Source: Neiella marina (GTDB lineage Bacteria > Pseudomonadota > Gammaproteobacteria > Enterobacterales > Neiellaceae). From it: DNA of 64,000 bases. Position 1 is the stretch's first letter. Every line of letters begins with the position of its first letter. Below the pieces are notes generated by a model. It was given only the letters and a program-made list of their open reading frames with translations, had not been told where the DNA came from and searched no databases. Positions 17,656 to 49,706 of the stretch are shown here, one piece after another. Location of the stretch: NCBI RefSeq assembly GCF_002165625.1, contig NZ_NGNS01000022.1, forward strand, positions 1 to 64,000, written 5' to 3'. The translations under genes were made by a program, and so were the position numbers.

Positions 17656-17734
17656 GCCAGCTGCACTTTGACTTAAAGCGTGCCCTTGACTGCCGCCCCA
17701 AAAGCTCTGTTGTCAGCCTCCGGCCTAGCTGCAT

Positions 17735-17824
17735 CAAGTATCCAATATCAAAGACGCCGAGAAATCGTCCCTGATGGCTCCACTGCAGCTTCCCTGCTGC
17801 AGAGGCTTTGATATAGGACACTTG
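17735..17824 (-). repeat. Double-hairpin element 3, nested in an inverted repeat
   Basis: Outer arms CAAGTATCCAATATCAAAG (17735-17753) and CTTTGATATAGGACACTTG (17806-17824) pair at 17 of 19 positions. The core is on the minus strand: a CTGCAG-based hairpin (17783-17802), then CCATCAGGGACGAT and TCTCGGCGTCTT. The core matches element 5 best. Confidence 0.8.
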
Positions 17825-17846
17825 ATTCCGCTCTAGACAGTTCCGC

Positions 17847-24001: not shown

Positions 24002-24304
24002 CTACGCAACGGCAGACGCTGGCGTGTGGGTATGGCAAGCTTTTGGACAGACACGAGCGCAAGCACTACAGCCGATACAATCACCTGCATCTTTCAGATC
24101 CATCACCATCATCACATCGTCTTCATAATCATCGTAAGCGTCATCGTCTTCATCGATTTCACGCTCGACCAGATCGAAAACATCCCGTGGACAGACTTTG
24201 TAACAACGACCGCAGCCAATACAGGTTGATTGGTCGATATCGGTGACAAACTGCGGCTCCCAGCTGTCACCACTGCGGGTTTTCCCCATAAATTCGGCTG
24301 ACAT
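24002..24304 (-). CDS. fdxB: Nif-specific 2[4Fe-4S] ferredoxin (FdxB / ferredoxin III type)
   Basis: A 100-residue ferredoxin with CIGCGRCYKVCP and CIGCSACARVCPKACHTH, separated by a strongly acidic insertion (EIDEDDDAYDDYEDDV). That insertion is typical of the nif-linked FdxB type found after nifX. It probably carries electrons to FeMo-co assembly or to nitrogenase reductase. The ATG at 24304 has a GGAGAAAA site; an upstream frame extension overlapping nifX is rejected. Confidence 0.92.
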   Translation of the reverse strand: MSAEFMGKTRSGDSWEPQFVTDIDQSTCIGCGRCYKVCPRDVFDLVEREIDEDDDAYDDYEDDVMMVMDLKDAGDCIGCSACARVCPKACHTHTPASAVA

Positions 24305-24354
24305 GTTTTTCTCCGTTTTTTCTAAAACAAAGGTTCCTAAGTGAATTCTGTGTG

Positions 24355-24840
24355 TTACCAACTCTCATCCAGCAAATCAGTGAGTGCCTTACTCTGATGG
24401 TGCTGACTAGTACCGCGCCGCAAGGCCTTACCGAGCCAACCTTTGGGCTCTTCAGTGAGTTGCATTTGAAGTTCGGTAATCGCTTGCTGAATGGCATGAC
24501 CAGCGGCCACTTTCAGCGGCTGCACCCCTTGACTAACAAGTTGAGCGATAGCCGATGGGCCAATGGCATTGCAGTAAACCGCCGCGCAGTCATGCAAGGC
24601 GTCATATCTCGCTTGCAACTTACCTTGGTCATGGCCACTGGCCAATTGACTGAACTGGACCACTTCAGCAACGCTCGCTTGATGACGGTCAACGCCGTAA
24701 ATGGATAGCGCTTTGCAAGTGCCAAAATGTTGATTGATATGTTCTTGATCATCGGTGGCAAATGCCACAAACAGCTCGAAATGCTGTGACGAATCAGCTA
24801 CCAGCTGAAGCTTACGCTGAGGATTAACGCTACTCATCAT
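24355..24840 (-). CDS. nifX: Nitrogenase cofactor carrier NifX
   Basis: NifX binds FeMo-co precursors (NifB-co and VK-cluster) and moves them between NifB, NifEN and apo-nitrogenase. The 161-residue protein has the NifX/NafY-type domain, seen here in LFVAFATDDQEHINQHFGTCKALSIYGVD, with the conserved histidine-containing HFG motif, and a C-terminal EEPKGWLGKALRRG tail. It overlaps nifN by four bases (ATGA), so the two are translationally coupled. Confidence 0.95.
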   Translation of the reverse strand: MMSSVNPQRKLQLVADSSQHFELFVAFATDDQEHINQHFGTCKALSIYGVDRHQASVAEVVQFSQLASGHDQGKLQARYDALHDCAAVYCNAIGPSAIAQLVSQGVQPLKVAAGHAIQQAITELQMQLTEEPKGWLGKALRRGTSQHHQSKALTDLLDESW

Positions 24841-26240
24841 TCAGCACCTCGCGCCACAGTCGACAATGTATCAGCTGCTTCAAATCGATACTTTGAGTAG
24901 TGCGGGGTCACTTCATCGTGATGATGTTTGTACAAGCAATTGGCCAGCGCAAACAAAACGGCACGACTACCTTCGTAGCCAAGCTGCAAGGTATCGCTAC
25001 TGCCATATTTGTCATGGCATGGATAGCCAGCTCGAAGCACAGGTACTTGCGGTTCACAAAGGGCAGCGCAATGGCTGTTGCCAACCACCACTTCTACCTC
25101 ACCCAGTACCTGTTCAATGTCAGATAAATCACCGACAACCCAGTCATCTGTTTGCCAGTGCTCCGCCGTTGCACTGCCAGTGGCGGTAACAATTCGTTTG
25201 ATCGCCATGCCCTGTTCTGCCAACAGAGTTTGGTAGCCTGCCGCCAAATCAGTTTCGGCAGCAATGGCGACAGCAGCCTGGCTAAGTACAAAGTGGCAAT
25301 CGAGCATCGCGTCTTGCAGTCGTTGCCGGCTGCGGTTAATCCAATTCGGCACCGGCTTGCCACTTAATTGCGTCAGCAACTGCACCAAGCCATCGGTTTC
25401 TGCTAAGCCCATGACATTACCGACAAAATGGCAAGGCACCTGATGGTGCTGCTGCAACCATTTACCGGTTGCTTGCAGTGACTCGCCAATCACTATTGTT
25501 GCCGCACTGGTTGCCATTCGCTCGATATCTTCAATAGCAGTGCCTCCTGCGCTGGTGGCAGAAAAATCATCGCCATCAAGATGGCCATCGAGTGATTGTG
25601 ATAAGTCCGGCACCATGATGGCATCGATGTCAAAGGCATCGATATAGCGTTGCAATAGATCAACATCAGCAGGCGTTAAAGCACTACTTGCTAATACGTT
25701 GAGCTGCAAACTGTGATTGGAATATGCGCGCGTTGATTGGCTCACCGTTGGTCGTGTGGCTTGGCGCGTTGTTTGCCGAATAAGGGCATCAACCGCGGCA
25801 GCGTATCCGGTCTGCATTGAGCCGGTAAAATCAGGCGTGTTAATGGTCACTACTCGAGTGGTACTGTGCTGCGGATACTGCTGGCTAAATTGCTTGGCGA
25901 TGCGCTCGATATCGGCCCCTTGCATTTCAGTCAGGCCAGTAGTCATCACTGCGATCAGATCCGGATGGTGTTTGTCACACAGCAAAGCAATGGCACTCAG
26001 CAGGTTGTCATCGCCGCCCATGACGGCGGCAACTTGATCGATAGCGGTGTTTTGCAGCGGTACCGGTTCACGAAAATGCTGGATCAAATACACCTTAGCA
26101 AAGGCTGCACAGCCCTGAGAGCCGTGCATCAATGGAATACTGTTGGCCAGCCCCAGCATCGCCAGCGTCGCGCCGGTCGGTTGGCTGGTCTTTAGAGGTC
26201 TTTCAACCAAAGCGCGCTTATTGACTTTACGAATCACCAT
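24837..26240 (-). CDS. nifN: FeMo-cofactor scaffold subunit NifN
   Basis: NifN is the NifK-like beta subunit of the NifEN scaffold on which the FeMo-co precursor matures. The 467-residue protein opens with KRALVERPLKTSQPTGATLAMLGLANSIPLMHGSQGCAAF, holding the conserved cluster cysteine in GSQGC. VMTTGLTEMQGADIE corresponds to the position of a NifK P-cluster ligand. It starts two bases after nifE, so the pair is cotranslated. Confidence 0.96.
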   Translation of the reverse strand: MVIRKVNKRALVERPLKTSQPTGATLAMLGLANSIPLMHGSQGCAAFAKVYLIQHFREPVPLQNTAIDQVAAVMGGDDNLLSAIALLCDKHHPDLIAVMTTGLTEMQGADIERIAKQFSQQYPQHSTTRVVTINTPDFTGSMQTGYAAAVDALIRQTTRQATRPTVSQSTRAYSNHSLQLNVLASSALTPADVDLLQRYIDAFDIDAIMVPDLSQSLDGHLDGDDFSATSAGGTAIEDIERMATSAATIVIGESLQATGKWLQQHHQVPCHFVGNVMGLAETDGLVQLLTQLSGKPVPNWINRSRQRLQDAMLDCHFVLSQAAVAIAAETDLAAGYQTLLAEQGMAIKRIVTATGSATAEHWQTDDWVVGDLSDIEQVLGEVEVVVGNSHCAALCEPQVPVLRAGYPCHDKYGSSDTLQLGYEGSRAVLFALANCLYKHHHDEVTPHYSKYRFEAADTLSTVARGAE

Positions 26241-26242
26241 GA

Positions 26243-27682
26243 TTAGTGCTCCCGCGCGATGTTACGGCCTTGATGACGGACCACACTTAAATGGATCAAT
26301 TCCGATGGTTCAAGCCATGGCGCGGTACTTCGAACTTGCTGCCAAATTGGACTTTCCAAGGTTCGGCATAGCTCCTTGGCCAAATTAACCAAACCGGCAT
26401 AGCCAGCATAAGCATGCTCGCGTTCTTGGTTAATATCGAGAAATGGCATCTTGGCCTTGAGCGCGGTGTACATGTTGCGGCCACCAGCAATCATTAGATC
26501 GGCGTTGTGCTCTGCAGCCACATCCAATAAATTGCGCGCCCCGCCTTCATCCAGCATTAACGCATCTGGGCCCATAATCTCGCGAATACGTGCTTTGTCA
26601 TGCTCGGTTGATTTCTTTGTGCCAGTGGCAACCACTTCAATGTCCAGCTGCTGCAGTGCTGCGACCACTGACCAAGATTTCACCCCGCCGGTGTAGACCA
26701 ATGCCCGTTTGCCTTGCAACCGGTCACGATAAGGAGCCAACAGCGCTTTGGTTTCCATTTCCTTAAAGGCAATCAATTGTTCAGTTTCGGCAATCAGTTT
26801 TGGATCACCGATCAGACGAGCAAATTGCCGAAGCGATTCTGACGTGTCCTCAAGGCCATAAAAGCTCCCTTCAAACCAGGGGATACCCCAACGCTGCTCC
26901 AGCATCCGGGCAACATTGATTTGTGCTCGCGAGCAAACCACCATGGCGGCATCGGCTCGATGCATGGTTTGAATTTCGTGAAAACGAGTGTCACCGGCCA
27001 TGCAGCTCAGCACTCGATAACCGAGTTGTTCGAGTAACGGTGAAATGTGCCAAAACTCACCGGCAATGTTGTATTCGCCGATCAACACAATGTCATGCAC
27101 TTTGCGGGTCGGATCGTGGCGCATCACGGGTTTAGGTGGCGGCTCAGCGGTACCAATGACTTTGCGCACCATGACATCACCAGCGATTCGGTTGCCCAAG
27201 TTTTTATTGCCATAGAAGCCAGCGGCATCAACGGCAATCACTGGGCGCTGCCAACGTTGCTGTGCTAAATCGCAAATGGCATCGACATCGTTACCTTCAA
27301 GCGCAGGTACACAGGTCATGTAGACAAATACTGCTGGCGGATCATGACGCTCAATGACCTCTTTGATGGCATGGAGCAAGCGCTTTTCGGCACGGCCCAT
27401 AATGACATCTTGTTCATTTAAGTCAGTGGTAAAGCCCAAACGAAACAAATTTCGGCCATTGGCTCGGGTGCCACGGTTGTTCCAACTATTCCCCGCACAG
27501 GCAATGGGTCCGTGAATGATATGGGCAACATCGGCAATCGGCAGCAAACTGATTTGTGCGCCATCGAAGCTGCAGCCTCCTGCGGTGTTACCTGGTGTTG
27601 GCCGACTACAACCGCTTTTGTCACCTTTATTGTGTTCGCAAGCGGGTTCATCTAATAATTCGGCGATTTCACTACGTTTCAT
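26243..27682 (-). CDS. nifE: FeMo-cofactor scaffold subunit NifE
   Basis: NifE is the NifD-like alpha subunit of the NifEN scaffold. The 479-residue protein has [43 protein letters not shown] near the N-terminus with the cluster cysteines, and [18 protein letters not shown] start at the ATG at 27682, which has an AGGAGG site. The same frame is open for 41 more codons, but these read into a MITE and are not conserved. The operon continues nifN, nifX, fdxB, rseC. A NifA site and sigma-54 promoter lie beyond the MITE. Confidence 0.96.
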
Positions 27683-27722
27683 TGGGTTCCTCCTGAGAAG
27701 CAAAGAGCGGCTCAATGGTGCT

Positions 27723-27988
27723 AGGGTCTGTTTATCTCTGATGTATAAATTTTGTTCGTTCAAAACACTCTTTTGAGCAAGGCGCGAGCTTTGCCGTATA
27801 GCCATCTATACAAATAGCGAGCAACGCCGCGAAACGAGTGTTTTGACGAACCCTTAGGGCAGCATTTATGGGTGATTTATTCTGCGTCAGCGATTTCTTA
27901 TTGACAGCCAGTCAACGTCGCAACCGCTTCCTTGCCTAAATTCCCCATAAATTGCTGCAAAAACATACATCAGAGATCAACAGGCCCT
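27723..27988. mobile_element. MITE-like element in the nifE leader
   Basis: The 266-base element has terminal inverted repeats AGGGTCTGTTTATCTCTGATGTA (given in two parts: AGGGTCTGTTTA and TCTCTGATGTA) that match the far end at 21 of 23 positions. Internally there is a second imperfect palindrome (GTTCAAAACACTC... near 27756 with ...GAGTGTTTTGAC near 27837). It has no gene. I recall similar non-coding elements ending GGGCCTGTTGATC in Vibrio and Shewanella genomes, but cannot verify this here. It lies 40 bases before the nifE ATG, downstream of the sigma-54 promoter, so it would be transcribed as part of the nifENX leader. Confidence 0.8.
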
Positions 27989-28041
27989 GATGCCAAGCAA
28001 CCATTGTCCGTTCTTGCTAAAACAGTCTTCATAGGAACCAG

Positions 28042-28057
28042 TGCAAACTTCAGACCT
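28042..28057 (-). promoter_or_regulatory. Sigma-54 promoter of nifENX-fdxB-rseC
   Basis: On the minus strand AGGTCTGAAGTTTGCA has GG and GC separated by 10 bases and a perfect TTGCA -12 block. Together with the NifA-type site upstream this fits a sigma-54 promoter. Transcription would start near 28030 and run through the MITE. Confidence 0.72.
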
Positions 28058-28090
28058 CCACTAACATAATGATTTAATTGACTTAAATAT

Positions 28091-28106
28091 TGTAAGGTTT
28101 ACGACA
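28091..28106. promoter_or_regulatory. NifA upstream activator site (TGT-N10-ACA)
   Basis: TGTAAGGTTTACGACA fits the NifA consensus TGT-N10-ACA. It shares TTACGACA with the site upstream of nifH. It is about 60-70 bases upstream of the predicted start site, slightly closer than usual. Confidence 0.7.
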
Positions 28107-28132: not shown

Positions 28133-28161
28133 CACAAAAAAGCGAGCCACGTGGGCTCGCT
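28133..28161 (-). terminator. Intrinsic terminator of the GH16 gene
   Basis: On the minus strand AGCGAGCC/GGCTCGCT forms a stable hairpin followed by six T, 20 bases after the GH16 stop codon. Confidence 0.85.
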
Positions 28162-28180
28162 TGTTACCGTGCAAAGATCA

Positions 28181-29569
28181 TTAGTGTGCGGTCGGCCGCT
28201 GGTATACCCGGACATAATCGACAGCCATTTGCAGTGGAAAAATGGTGTCATCGATCGGACCGCCTGCGCTTCCCCATGCGCCGCCAACGGCAATATTGAG
28301 GATCAAGTGGAATGGGTGATCATAGGGCCATGATTGCCAACCGGTATGATCATTCATGTAGCTAAAGTACAAAGTATCATCAAAGTAAACATCGATACGT
28401 TCTGGTGTCCACTCGAGCGCGTAGACATGGAAGGCTTCACTGACATCTTTACCTTCAACGGCGCCCTTACGCTGCTCCCAGTTCACCCAGTAATAAGCTT
28501 TGTTATGCACAGTGCCGTGGACTCGATTCATGTCGTAACCGACATGCTCCATGATATCGATTTCGCCCGAGTTAGGCCAAGCGTCACAGGTTGAGCTGCC
28601 TTGCCACTCGGCTTCGGTGCTGCAGGTCGTTGCGTAGGTGAAGGGATCAGACGGCAACATCCAGATGGCGGGCCAAGAGCCTTGTCCTGCTGGCAACTTT
28701 GCTCGGATCTCGGCGCGGCCGTACAAAAAGTCACCTTTGCCGCGGGAATGGATGCGGCCCGAGGTATACTGGGCATTGTCGTACTGCTCTTTTAACGCTT
28801 CAATAATCAAGTGGCCATTCTCAACCCGAACGTTTTGCAACCGATCGGTATACGCCTGATCTTCAGCATTGACTTTACCCGCAGGCCAAATATCGTAATT
28901 CCACTTGTTCGGATCGGGCGCACCCGAATAATCAAATTCATCGTTCCAAACCAATTGCCACTCTTGCGGATCGTGCCACTTGGGCCGCACCACAATGCCA
29001 TTTAGCAATGGCTCACCAGCAGAAGCAGCAAAATCGATGTTTAACACCCCATCAGTGACTTCAACATTAGTCACGGTGCGAACCAATGCTGAGCGGAAGT
29101 TGCCATCTCGCTCTCGGCGAACCGCCAGTTGCGGCACCACAATTTGGCCTTCAGCTAAGACATCAAACACCCGACCATATTGCTCAATGTCGTTGGGCTC
29201 AGCAAATTTAAATGTGACATCGTAAATGCCATTAGCCAGTGGTTTGGCAATAGTCAGTTTGCCTTGCCGGTAGCTTTTAAATAGCTCTGGATCTTGAGAG
29301 CCTAAGATCTCAGAAATGACGCCCTCGCTACCACCGATACTGCCATCATCAGCCTGATAGTGAATACCATCATTACCACAGTAGTCACCACCACCGACAT
29401 TCATTGCCCAAGCAACGGCTTGGCTAGACGTCAGGGACTGATTGAGCTGATAGAACTGTCCCTGCTCAGGGCTAGCCTTCTGGGGCGAAGCTGAATCATC
29501 TTTACTACCACTGCACCCCACCAATAGTCCTGCCACCACAGCAGTGACAAACTTACATTTAGAAAACAC
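28181..29569 (-). CDS. GH16 endo-beta-1,3-glucanase (laminarinase-like) lipoprotein
   Basis: The 462-residue protein has a lipobox LLVGC near residue 19, so it is probably anchored in the outer membrane or periplasm. Residues about 35-200 form a malectin-like carbohydrate-binding domain with VGGGDY and NGIVVRP. Residues about 205-458 are the GH16 catalytic domain with the signature GEIDIMEHVG, where the two glutamates are nucleophile and acid/base, plus WPAIWMLP and WTPERIDVYFDD. The family cleaves beta-1,3 or beta-1,3/1,4 glucans; laminarin is the best guess in a marine bacterium. A LacI-type palindrome lies 68 bases upstream. Confidence 0.93.
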   Translation of the reverse strand: MFSKCKFVTAVVAGLLVGCSGSKDDSASPQKASPEQGQFYQLNQSLTSSQAVAWAMNVGGGDYCGNDGIHYQADDGSIGGSEGVISEILGSQDPELFKSYRQGKLTIAKPLANGIYDVTFKFAEPNDIEQYGRVFDVLAEGQIVVPQLAVRRERDGNFRSALVRTVTNVEVTDGVLNIDFAASAGEPLLNGIVVRPKWHDPQEWQLVWNDEFDYSGAPDPNKWNYDIWPAGKVNAEDQAYTDRLQNVRVENGHLIIEALKEQYDNAQYTSGRIHSRGKGDFLYGRAEIRAKLPAGQGSWPAIWMLPSDPFTYATTCSTEAEWQGSSTCDAWPNSGEIDIMEHVGYDMNRVHGTVHNKAYYWVNWEQRKGAVEGKDVSEAFHVYALEWTPERIDVYFDDTLYFSYMNDHTGWQSWPYDHPFHLILNIAVGGAWGSAGGPIDDTIFPLQMAVDYVRVYQRPTAH

Positions 29570-42858: not shown

Positions 42859-42960
42859 GCGAAATGCAAAGCTAAGCAACAAGACGTAGTGAATCCTTCC
42901 ATGGATACTCAGCCGCTGCCTCCATGCAGCGGATGCTTGATGCTTAGCTTTCCATTCCGC
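42859..42960 (-). repeat. Double-hairpin element 6, inside the nifK-nifT gap
   Basis: Outer arms, each 25 bases (42859-42883 and 42936-42960), pair at about 22 positions, with AAAGCTAAGCA/TGCTTAGCTTT as the centre. The core on the minus strand has CCGCTGC-ATGGAG-GCAGCGG and TATCCATGGA. A further half copy (TGTCAG/CTGACA hairpin, then ATTTCACGGCGTTTTG) follows at about 42964-43013. The 304-base nifK-nifT gap holds nothing else. Confidence 0.78.
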
Positions 42961-43126: not shown

Positions 43127-44698
43127 TTAACGCACCAAGTCGTAGCCGTAGTCGGTTTTACCCATCTTGCGAGTATCGTCGTCCAACTTCTCAAGCACTG
43201 AGTTAACCAAGGTAGTCAGCATGTACATGCCGCCTTCGTAACCCAATGTGGTGTTGCGATGCAGATGATGACGATCGAAGATTGGGAAGCCCAAGCGGAT
43301 CAGAGGTACTTCAAACTCTTCACCTTTGGCTTTGGTATCGCGCTGAATAAACTTGGCGTACGAGTTACCAATCATGAAGTCTGGCTTGTTGGTGAATACC
43401 AGCGAACGGAAATGCCACAAGTCTTTACCAATGTGGATTTCGGCACCGGCAGTACCAGGCGCTTCAGCGATCAGTGCTTCCATCTTCTTGCGCCAGCGTT
43501 TGTTACCGTTGTTGGCAAGAATATGTTTCACTTCACAACCCAACTCTTGCAGGAATTTGGTCAAGCCCAACAGATAATCTGGATCGCCGTAGATAGAGAA
43601 ACTAACGCCGTGCAACCAAGTGTGTGAGTCGGTCATCATGTCGACCAAGCGACCGCGCTCTTTGGCCAATGATTCTGGGATCTCTTTGCCGCTGATTTCT
43701 GAAATCGTCATCAGGAATTCATCGGTCCAATCCAAGCCCATCGGAATATTGGTCGCCGGTACGTCATGCTTCCAAGTGTTGGTGACAAACTTCTTGGTTT
43801 TCACCAATTGGTCTGGTTGCAACAAAATCGTGGTTTTGGCGTTTGGCGCATCTTTCATTTCCGCAATTGGCGTGCCGCCGGCGTACATGCGATATTCGCC
43901 GTCTGCTGGTGTATCCAATACTTCACTTGGATCGCACAACAAACTGTAATCAACACCCATTTCTTGCATCATGCGATGCATCACACGGTAGTTACCCAGA
44001 TACGTTTCAAAGCCAGGCACTAAGTTGATTTTGCCATTGCTACCAACTTCTTTGTCTTCCATGTAGTTCAAGGTGAAGTAGCGAGCAGCACCTTCAAACA
44101 TGTTGTCCCAGCCAGTCACATGGCTGCCAACGAAGCTTGGCGTGTGAGCAAATGGTGTTGGTAAATCTTCTGGGATGTAGCCTTCTTTTTTGGCGTTACC
44201 AATAAAGGCGTTCAAGTCATCACCAATTACCTCAGCCATACAGGTGGTCGACACCATGATGACTTCTGGCTTATACAGTGCCAGCGAGTTTTGCAGACCA
44301 TCGAACATGTTCTTCTGGCCACCAAATACCGCTGCATCTTCGGTCATTGAGTCCGAGACACATGCCACTGGCTCTTTAAAGTGACGGTTAAAGTAAGTGC
44401 GGAAATAAGCCACACAACCTTGCGAACCATGAACATAAGGCAAGGTGTTTTCAAAACCCAAGGCACAAAGCACAGAGCCCAATGGCTGACACGCTTTTGC
44501 TGGGTTGATGGTGAGGCTCTTACGAGCAAAGTTAAGCTCTTTGTATTCTTCGGACGTGGTCCATTCGAATACCTCTTTGACCTTCTCGGCGTCATGACCT
44601 TCTTCGAACATTTCGCGTTTGCGGGCGATCATGTCCTGATATTCCGGCTGGCCGAATAACGGATAACCCGGTTTGATATCTTCTACTGATTGACTCAT
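43127..44698 (-). CDS. nifK: Nitrogenase MoFe protein beta chain NifK
   Basis: NifK forms the alpha2-beta2 dinitrogenase with NifD and shares the P-cluster. The 523-residue protein has the three P-cluster cysteines in KACQPLGSVLCALG, HGSQGCVAYF and VSTTCMAEVIGDDL. The N-terminal extension (about 50 residues) is the usual length for Mo nitrogenase of the Azotobacter/Klebsiella group. I start at the ATG at 44698 with AGGAGA upstream; a longer frame reads into the intergenic gap. Confidence 0.98.
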   Translation of the reverse strand: MSQSVEDIKPGYPLFGQPEYQDMIARKREMFEEGHDAEKVKEVFEWTTSEEYKELNFARKSLTINPAKACQPLGSVLCALGFENTLPYVHGSQGCVAYFRTYFNRHFKEPVACVSDSMTEDAAVFGGQKNMFDGLQNSLALYKPEVIMVSTTCMAEVIGDDLNAFIGNAKKEGYIPEDLPTPFAHTPSFVGSHVTGWDNMFEGAARYFTLNYMEDKEVGSNGKINLVPGFETYLGNYRVMHRMMQEMGVDYSLLCDPSEVLDTPADGEYRMYAGGTPIAEMKDAPNAKTTILLQPDQLVKTKKFVTNTWKHDVPATNIPMGLDWTDEFLMTISEISGKEIPESLAKERGRLVDMMTDSHTWLHGVSFSIYGDPDYLLGLTKFLQELGCEVKHILANNGNKRWRKKMEALIAEAPGTAGAEIHIGKDLWHFRSLVFTNKPDFMIGNSYAKFIQRDTKAKGEEFEVPLIRLGFPIFDRHHLHRNTTLGYEGGMYMLTTLVNSVLEKLDDDTRKMGKTDYGYDLVR

Positions 44699-44799
44699 TT
44701 TCTTTCTCCTCCCGCGCCACTCATCTGTGAACAGACGGGTTGAGTGATACACATAAGCGCAATGCGCTCAATTCAGTGTTCTACTTGCCAAAGCGAGGC

Positions 44800-49352: not shown

Positions 49353-49706
49353 TTAGCCTCGGGATACCACTAGCAAATCATCAGCACATTTTTTCTGGTA
49401 CACCGCGTTCCACCAATGTGATTCGGCAATACCTGTGGTTGCGGTCATCGCAATCACTTCTCGGGTTAACTCCTGAAAACGCTGATTCTTGGCTTTGTCA
49501 GCAAAGGCGACCTGAGCGCCTGCTGCCAGCTCGGGTTTGCTGTCGCTATCTTCTTGCTGAGCGAACTGAGGAATATGCTGATCAATATAGGTGGCAACAA
49601 TCCGGCAATCCTGAATTTTCTGCTCATCAGCCAGTGCAGGCATCGACAACAAGCTCACGCAGGCCACTGCAAATCCAACATTTCTAAACAACTTGAAGCT
49701 TGTCAT
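49353..49706 (-). CDS. Small periplasmic protein under the TetR-type operator, unknown function
   Basis: A 117-residue protein with a signal peptide ending near ALA (about residue 26) and two cysteines in the mature part (DCRIVAT and KKCADD). No family is recognised. The ATG at 49706 has an AGGAGA site. An 18-base palindrome shared with the efflux pump and mipA promoters lies 35 bases upstream, at promoter distance. It is likely co-regulated with them. Confidence 0.78.
   Translation of the reverse strand: MTSFKLFRNVGFAVACVSLLSMPALADEQKIQDCRIVATYIDQHIPQFAQQEDSDSKPELAAGAQVAFADKAKNQRFQELTREVIAMTATTGIAESHWWNAVYQKKCADDLLVVSRG

Follow-up and report, generated by a model that had tools for sequence, protein, structure and literature searches.

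The DNA analysed here, referred to below as the window, is a 64,000-nucleotide stretch of Neiella marina (positions 1 to 64,000 of contig NZ_NGNS01000022.1), and it carries a nifENX operon on its minus strand. The genes nifE (26243-27682, with AGGAGG before its ATG at 27682), nifN (24837-26240) and nifX (24355-24840) are followed in the operon by a 4Fe-4S ferredoxin gene (24002-24361). Their Pfam matches, among them Oxidored_nitro for nifE and Nitro_FeMo-Co for nifX, agree with this gene order. Directly upstream of nifE lies a malectin-domain GH16 gene of laminarinase type (28181-29569), whose intrinsic terminator (28140-28162, minus strand) separates it from the nifE promoter. In N. holothuriorum the GH16 gene has an aligned counterpart close to nifE (L195, 10322-11490), but N. 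litorisoli lacks it at that position.

The first-pass annotation of this DNA had placed a NifA-type site and a sigma-54 promoter upstream of nifE, and both were found there on the minus strand: an upstream activator site (UAS), TGTCGTAAACCTTACA, of the form TGT-N10-ACA at 28091-28106, and a -24/-12 promoter, AGGTCTGAAGTTTGCA, at 28042-28057. Taken singly, neither motif is above chance in the 64-kb window (15 UAS-like sites against 18.7 expected, and likewise for the -24/-12 motif). The sigma-54 site retains GG-N10-GC and differs from TGGCACN5TTGCW at four scored positions; its -24 half is poor, with AGG instead of TGG and CAC absent. We nevertheless accept the promoter because the ordered pair is conserved in relatives: 74 of 79 related loci have it in the right order before nifE, compared with 23 of 1560 shuffles (1.5%), and the activator site keeps its position in the sister species and further relatives. 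A NifA/sigma-54 promoter, with TGT-N10-ACA upstream of GG-N10-GC, is thus supported by footprinting across related nifE loci. Judging from the -12 element, transcription would start 12 nt past it, near 28031, which gives a predicted leader of 349 nt (27683-28031, minus strand), about four times longer than the 83 nt predicted for N. litorisoli. The distance from the UAS to the ATG is 424 bp in the window vs 158, 159 and 152 bp in three relatives. From promoter to ATG it is 375 bp vs 45-203 bp in the 74 related loci, the longest among all loci compared.

Between the promoter and nifE, inside this predicted leader, sits a MITE-like element of 266 bp (27723-27988, minus strand). It makes up 76% of the 349 nt, in line with the earlier estimate of a leader of about 350 bases, three quarters of it MITE. 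Its terminal inverted repeats (TIRs), previously given as 23 bases, were measured at 24 nt with 22 complementary positions: on the plus strand, the nifE-proximal arm at 27723-27746 pairs with the promoter-proximal arm at 27965-27988. No other 24-mer inverted repeat with a span of 100-400 scores higher in the whole window. The insertion unit proper is 264 bp long (27724-27987), bordered by TA at 27722-27723 and by TG at 27988-27989, so that one of the two TAs flanking the nifE copy has decayed. By kind, the element is a MITE: it is shorter than 500 bp, bears TIRs and is too short for a transposase ORF, and its mobility and multicopy nature are seen from further copies and from element-free sister alleles at nifE and plsX. 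The sole long ORF crossing it is an open frame that continues into nifE. An ATG at 27805, within the element, is in frame with nifE (27683-27805), and a translation start there would lengthen NifE by 41 residues.

Comparison with related genomes, one of the checks proposed in the first-pass annotation, points to a derived insertion. When the locus is aligned with that of N. litorisoli HB171785, the window proves longer by a net 266 bp exactly, at a single CTAG. The empty nifE site of N. litorisoli is ggcaCTAGtgcc, and the N. litorisoli sequence ggcaCTAGtgccgttgagcc corresponds to ggcaTCA[GGGCC...GACCC]TAGcaccattgagcc in the window. The nifE locus also lacks the element in N. holothuriorum 126 and in a fourth genome of the bacterial family, and an nhmmer search of 80 nifE loci from other records returned no credible copy (only matches with E of 0.009 and 0.019). 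With three element-free relatives, the ancestral and immobile element that would have contradicted the earlier proposal is very unlikely. One could still assume that the element was ancestral at nifE and lost in the relatives, as clean excision is conceivable for TA-targeting elements. Yet the sister species has a perfect single CTAG target, and the three relatives and 80 other loci without the element would call for several independent clean losses; we regard such a history as extremely improbable.

Of the 45 copies extracted, 36 are flanked by TA on either side, and 30 of these 36 targets read YTAR. These flanks and the single CTAG of the empty nifE site identify a target-site duplication; as TA is self-complementary, the duplication claim rests on the comparison with the empty site. 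An IS5-type 4-bp duplication (CTAR) was rejected because the outer bases on the left and right are often unequal (CTAG on the left, CTAA on the right), and the duplication is therefore TA. In N. litorisoli, the empty target lies at the middle of a palindrome of 12 bp, GGCACTAGTGCC, within the nifE leader (upstream of G002:C23:7834-9270, L036). A rule of palindromic targets was rejected as well, since the other reconstructed flanks, inspected by eye, held nothing past YTAR.

NifE is 99% identical to its N. litorisoli counterpart at the protein level and the operon DNA is 89% identical. As the nifE locus is about 11% different from that of N. litorisoli at the DNA level, the insertion may be old and persistent; neutrality would allow such persistence without requiring it, and a recent origin is not demonstrable. 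The nifE copy groups, with good support, with three N. litorisoli copies, and its identity with the other Neiella copies is 83-88%, except for the degenerate L003 (65%). A distance of 12-17% from all of them except L003 gives no support to the nifE copy being a young member of a resident subfamily.

The first-pass annotation had expected the element to fold into a long hairpin. Folding is indeed predicted, very strongly so (-117 kcal/mol over 282 nt for the element with 8 nt on each side, z = -9.5), but as a branched structure, in which a terminal stem closed by the flanks carries two hairpin arms, rather than as a single long hairpin. Arm A (27754-27851), arm B (27860-27957) and the short CCC-TTA-GGG hairpin between them (helix 6, 27851-27859) each appear in the predicted fold and show compensatory changes across the element family. 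In an alignment of 32 copies we found a single architecture consisting of the terminal stem, arm A, a GAACCC-TTCGGG turn and arm B. RNAalifold gave 83 pairs for these 32 rows, 55 of them changed on both sides, and 95.6% of the alignment cells pair. The covariation score is 0.346, compared with 0.135 for shuffles, a control that is weak alone because the copies are related, and at most 0.064 for slid versions, a better control, although the structure itself was derived from the same alignment.

The compensated pairs are overwhelmingly Watson-Crick and without strand bias. Among the 68 pairs that the predictions for the two strands share, G-T occurs in 48 and A-C in 28 of 2169 cells; for the union of pairs from both strands, the counts are 141 and 147, and because RNAalifold selected the pairs, which biases the counts, the strand symmetry is an argument and not a proof. 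Since compensation is mostly Watson-Crick and strand-symmetric, it argues for upkeep of a DNA palindrome, which could occur through a hairpin-dependent step or template-switch correction, over selection on the RNA of one strand. In its unambiguous helices, the nifE copy itself has two compensated pairs seen in no other copy and no broken pair of its own, too few to decide on selection for structure at this locus.

The genome search for further copies, also proposed earlier, found more of them in the window genome and in the genus. Counted from searches, the window genome holds three copies of full length and, in addition, solo forms of 52 bp, and N. litorisoli gives about 27 matches, its full copies having a median identity of 95%. 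A search with a single query at E <= 1e-5 located the family, about 265 bp long, in 68 of 394 genomes of the order, which is a minimum, and the only three matching genomes in a class-wide sample all belong to the same order. It spans about 20 genera, with full copies of nearly constant length (264-268 bp); hosts include Pseudoalteromonas, Vibrio and Catenovulum, where copies lie on large secondary replicons. No match was found among phages or in 20,395 E. coli records, and the 4227 covariance models of Rfam did not match the element, the only match being a TPP riboswitch beside another copy. Altogether, this indicates a widespread, structure-conserved family within the order. No description of it was found in Rfam or in the literature searched by terminal sequence; its novelty is thus not proven and it may have been named before.

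The copies are intergenic and show no clear preference for leaders (28 tandem, 10 convergent and 7 divergent neighbour arrangements) and, counted by hand, no clear orientation preference (11 sense, 17 antisense). In six copies (L012, L016, L017, L018, L021 and L078), the neighbouring gene has its stop codon at the edge TA; insertion at TAG or TAA thus left that gene intact. The old copy L003 (1376-1642; G000:C19, about 49429-49695) lies between rpmF and plsX, in place of about 20 bp that contain the plsX start in N. litorisoli and N. holothuriorum. At plsX, the sister allele is element-free and the flank was replaced; the plsX start is now probably inside the element, at an in-frame TTG at 1574. 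The 52-bp solo hairpins consist of the two element ends alone (L004 1486-1537, L005 1486-1537, L006 1501-1552, L032 1501-1552 and L033 1498-1549), several of them right at gene ends, and probably arose by internal deletion or represent a minimal unit.

MITEs usually derive from an insertion sequence (IS) with the same TIRs, although this is not part of their structural definition. We found no transposase partner among the families screened, which were the four transposase families named here, the window genome being a draft. Four genomes of the bacterial family (G000-G003) gave no match to PF13340 (DUF4096), and the complete genome G059, despite 63 TIR matches, has no match to PF13358, PF01609 or PF01797 (DDE_3, DDE_Tnp_1 and Y1_Tnp). 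By eye, no TIR pair at IS distance was seen in the two complete genomes for which every match was listed (G320 and G059), each with dozens of TIRs. Screening for PF13340 in four genomes and for the other three families in six genomes, together with TIR-pair spacing, thus gave no fitting autonomous partner. A tentative idea, which we hold to be possible though doubtful, is that the nifE element is a copy of an undescribed and ancient family of branched DNA palindromes of about 265 bp, with arms and termini kept by Watson-Crick compensation. The folded DNA strand itself would then be the substrate for spread or upkeep, via a hairpin-recognising enzyme or quasi-palindrome template-switch repair, and not an IS transposase acting on TIRs.

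A parallel can be drawn with several known elements. Both ERIC/RU-1 and Correia elements target TA, as does this family. ERIC/RU-1, from Enterobacteriaceae and Vibrionaceae, is also short, palindromic, intergenic and gene-free, is distributed family- to order-wide and has no known autonomous partner. It differs in length, with 127 bp for RU-1 (PMC2759123) vs about 265 bp here, and no sequence similarity to ERIC as found in E. coli was seen: E. coli, a species carrying ERIC, has no match to the family. Correia elements (CIR/NEMIS) of Neisseria likewise offer the case of a MITE in a transcribed leader with a strong RNA fold, and for them processing by RNase III is known. They belong to another genus, measured 204 bp in the first description (PMC10969869) and have outward sigma-70 promoters, none of which was found in our element. 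MITEs of the Chunjie and QMITE types, of about 200-400 bp, have TIRs and occur in the same genome as both complete and shortened copies (PMC10969869), much like the 266-bp and 52-bp forms here; unlike them, the present family keeps nearly one length and two conserved arms across about 20 genera. The same review names SonMITE_1 of Shewanella (PMC10969869).

What, then, would the insertion do to nifENX? The earlier proposal of a MITE in the transcribed leader is borne out insofar as the element lies in the predicted leader. We propose that a non-autonomous, TA-targeting palindromic element of the MITE type inserted at CTAG in the short nifENX leader after the window lineage had split from N. litorisoli. 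The insertion would have spared the promoter, the activator site and the ribosome-binding site while adding 266 nt to a predicted leader of 83 nt, for a total of 349 nt. Its RNA could fold on itself, into a closed stem bearing a pair of hairpin arms, and because the insert is predicted to be self-folding, transcription and translation initiation would probably be little affected. In the model, opening the nifE start region (-18 to +15) costs 10.0 kcal/mol in the filled leader vs 8.9 in the natural empty one; ribosome-site accessibility is thus nearly unchanged, and no large translational effect is predicted. The sole plausible effect would be on mRNA processing or stability via RNase III or RNase E, as for Correia and ERIC. 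Taken as a whole, a derived TA-targeting MITE-type insertion, tolerated as a passenger in the nifENX leader, is in our opinion the probable explanation.

The element could instead act as a post-transcriptional regulator, with RNase III cutting its terminal stem and thereby altering the half-life of the nifENX mRNA and the supply of NifE and NifN relative to NifDK. Its location wholly within the predicted leader and the very stable predicted fold would suit such a role, for which there are precedents, as Correia-containing leaders are cut by RNase III and ERIC insertions show effects of RNase E (PMC10969869). However, the strand-symmetric, Watson-Crick pairing described above is not wobble-rich, the element occurs at no other nifE locus and its copies are not clearly biased in their orientation towards genes, so that we consider this role unlikely. 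The first-pass annotation had also suggested that the insertion brings its own promoter, which would allow some NifA-independent transcription of nifE, and other MITEs do carry sigma-70 promoters (PMC10969869). This suggestion found no support: a scan of the element region returned no sigma-70-like promoter where shuffles average 0.8, and the best nifE-directed match is a hybrid formed at the junction, TTGGCA-16-TCTGAT, which matches 9 of 12 positions with a poor -10 lacking A at position 2. We thus hold a promoter function to be highly improbable. Any effect of the element on nitrogen fixation would be conjectural, a passenger being most likely.

The insertion at nifE is of an ordinary kind and probably changes little, whereas the family to which it belongs is widespread and structure-conserved among marine Gammaproteobacteria, and the screen for a partner transposase gave none. 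Two uses can be made of this. The sister species offer a natural filled and empty pair at one sigma-54 promoter, which renders the effect of a structured 266-nt insert in a nif leader directly testable, and the genomes with dozens of copies do the same for the question of ERIC-like movement and palindrome upkeep. Two other strong hairpins, neither belonging to the element family, were observed in the window: one of about 100 nt with 21/24 arms (42859-42960), just downstream of a nitrogenase component gene that is probably nifK (43127-44752), and an intergenic one of about 105 nt with 20/24 arms (17727-17832).
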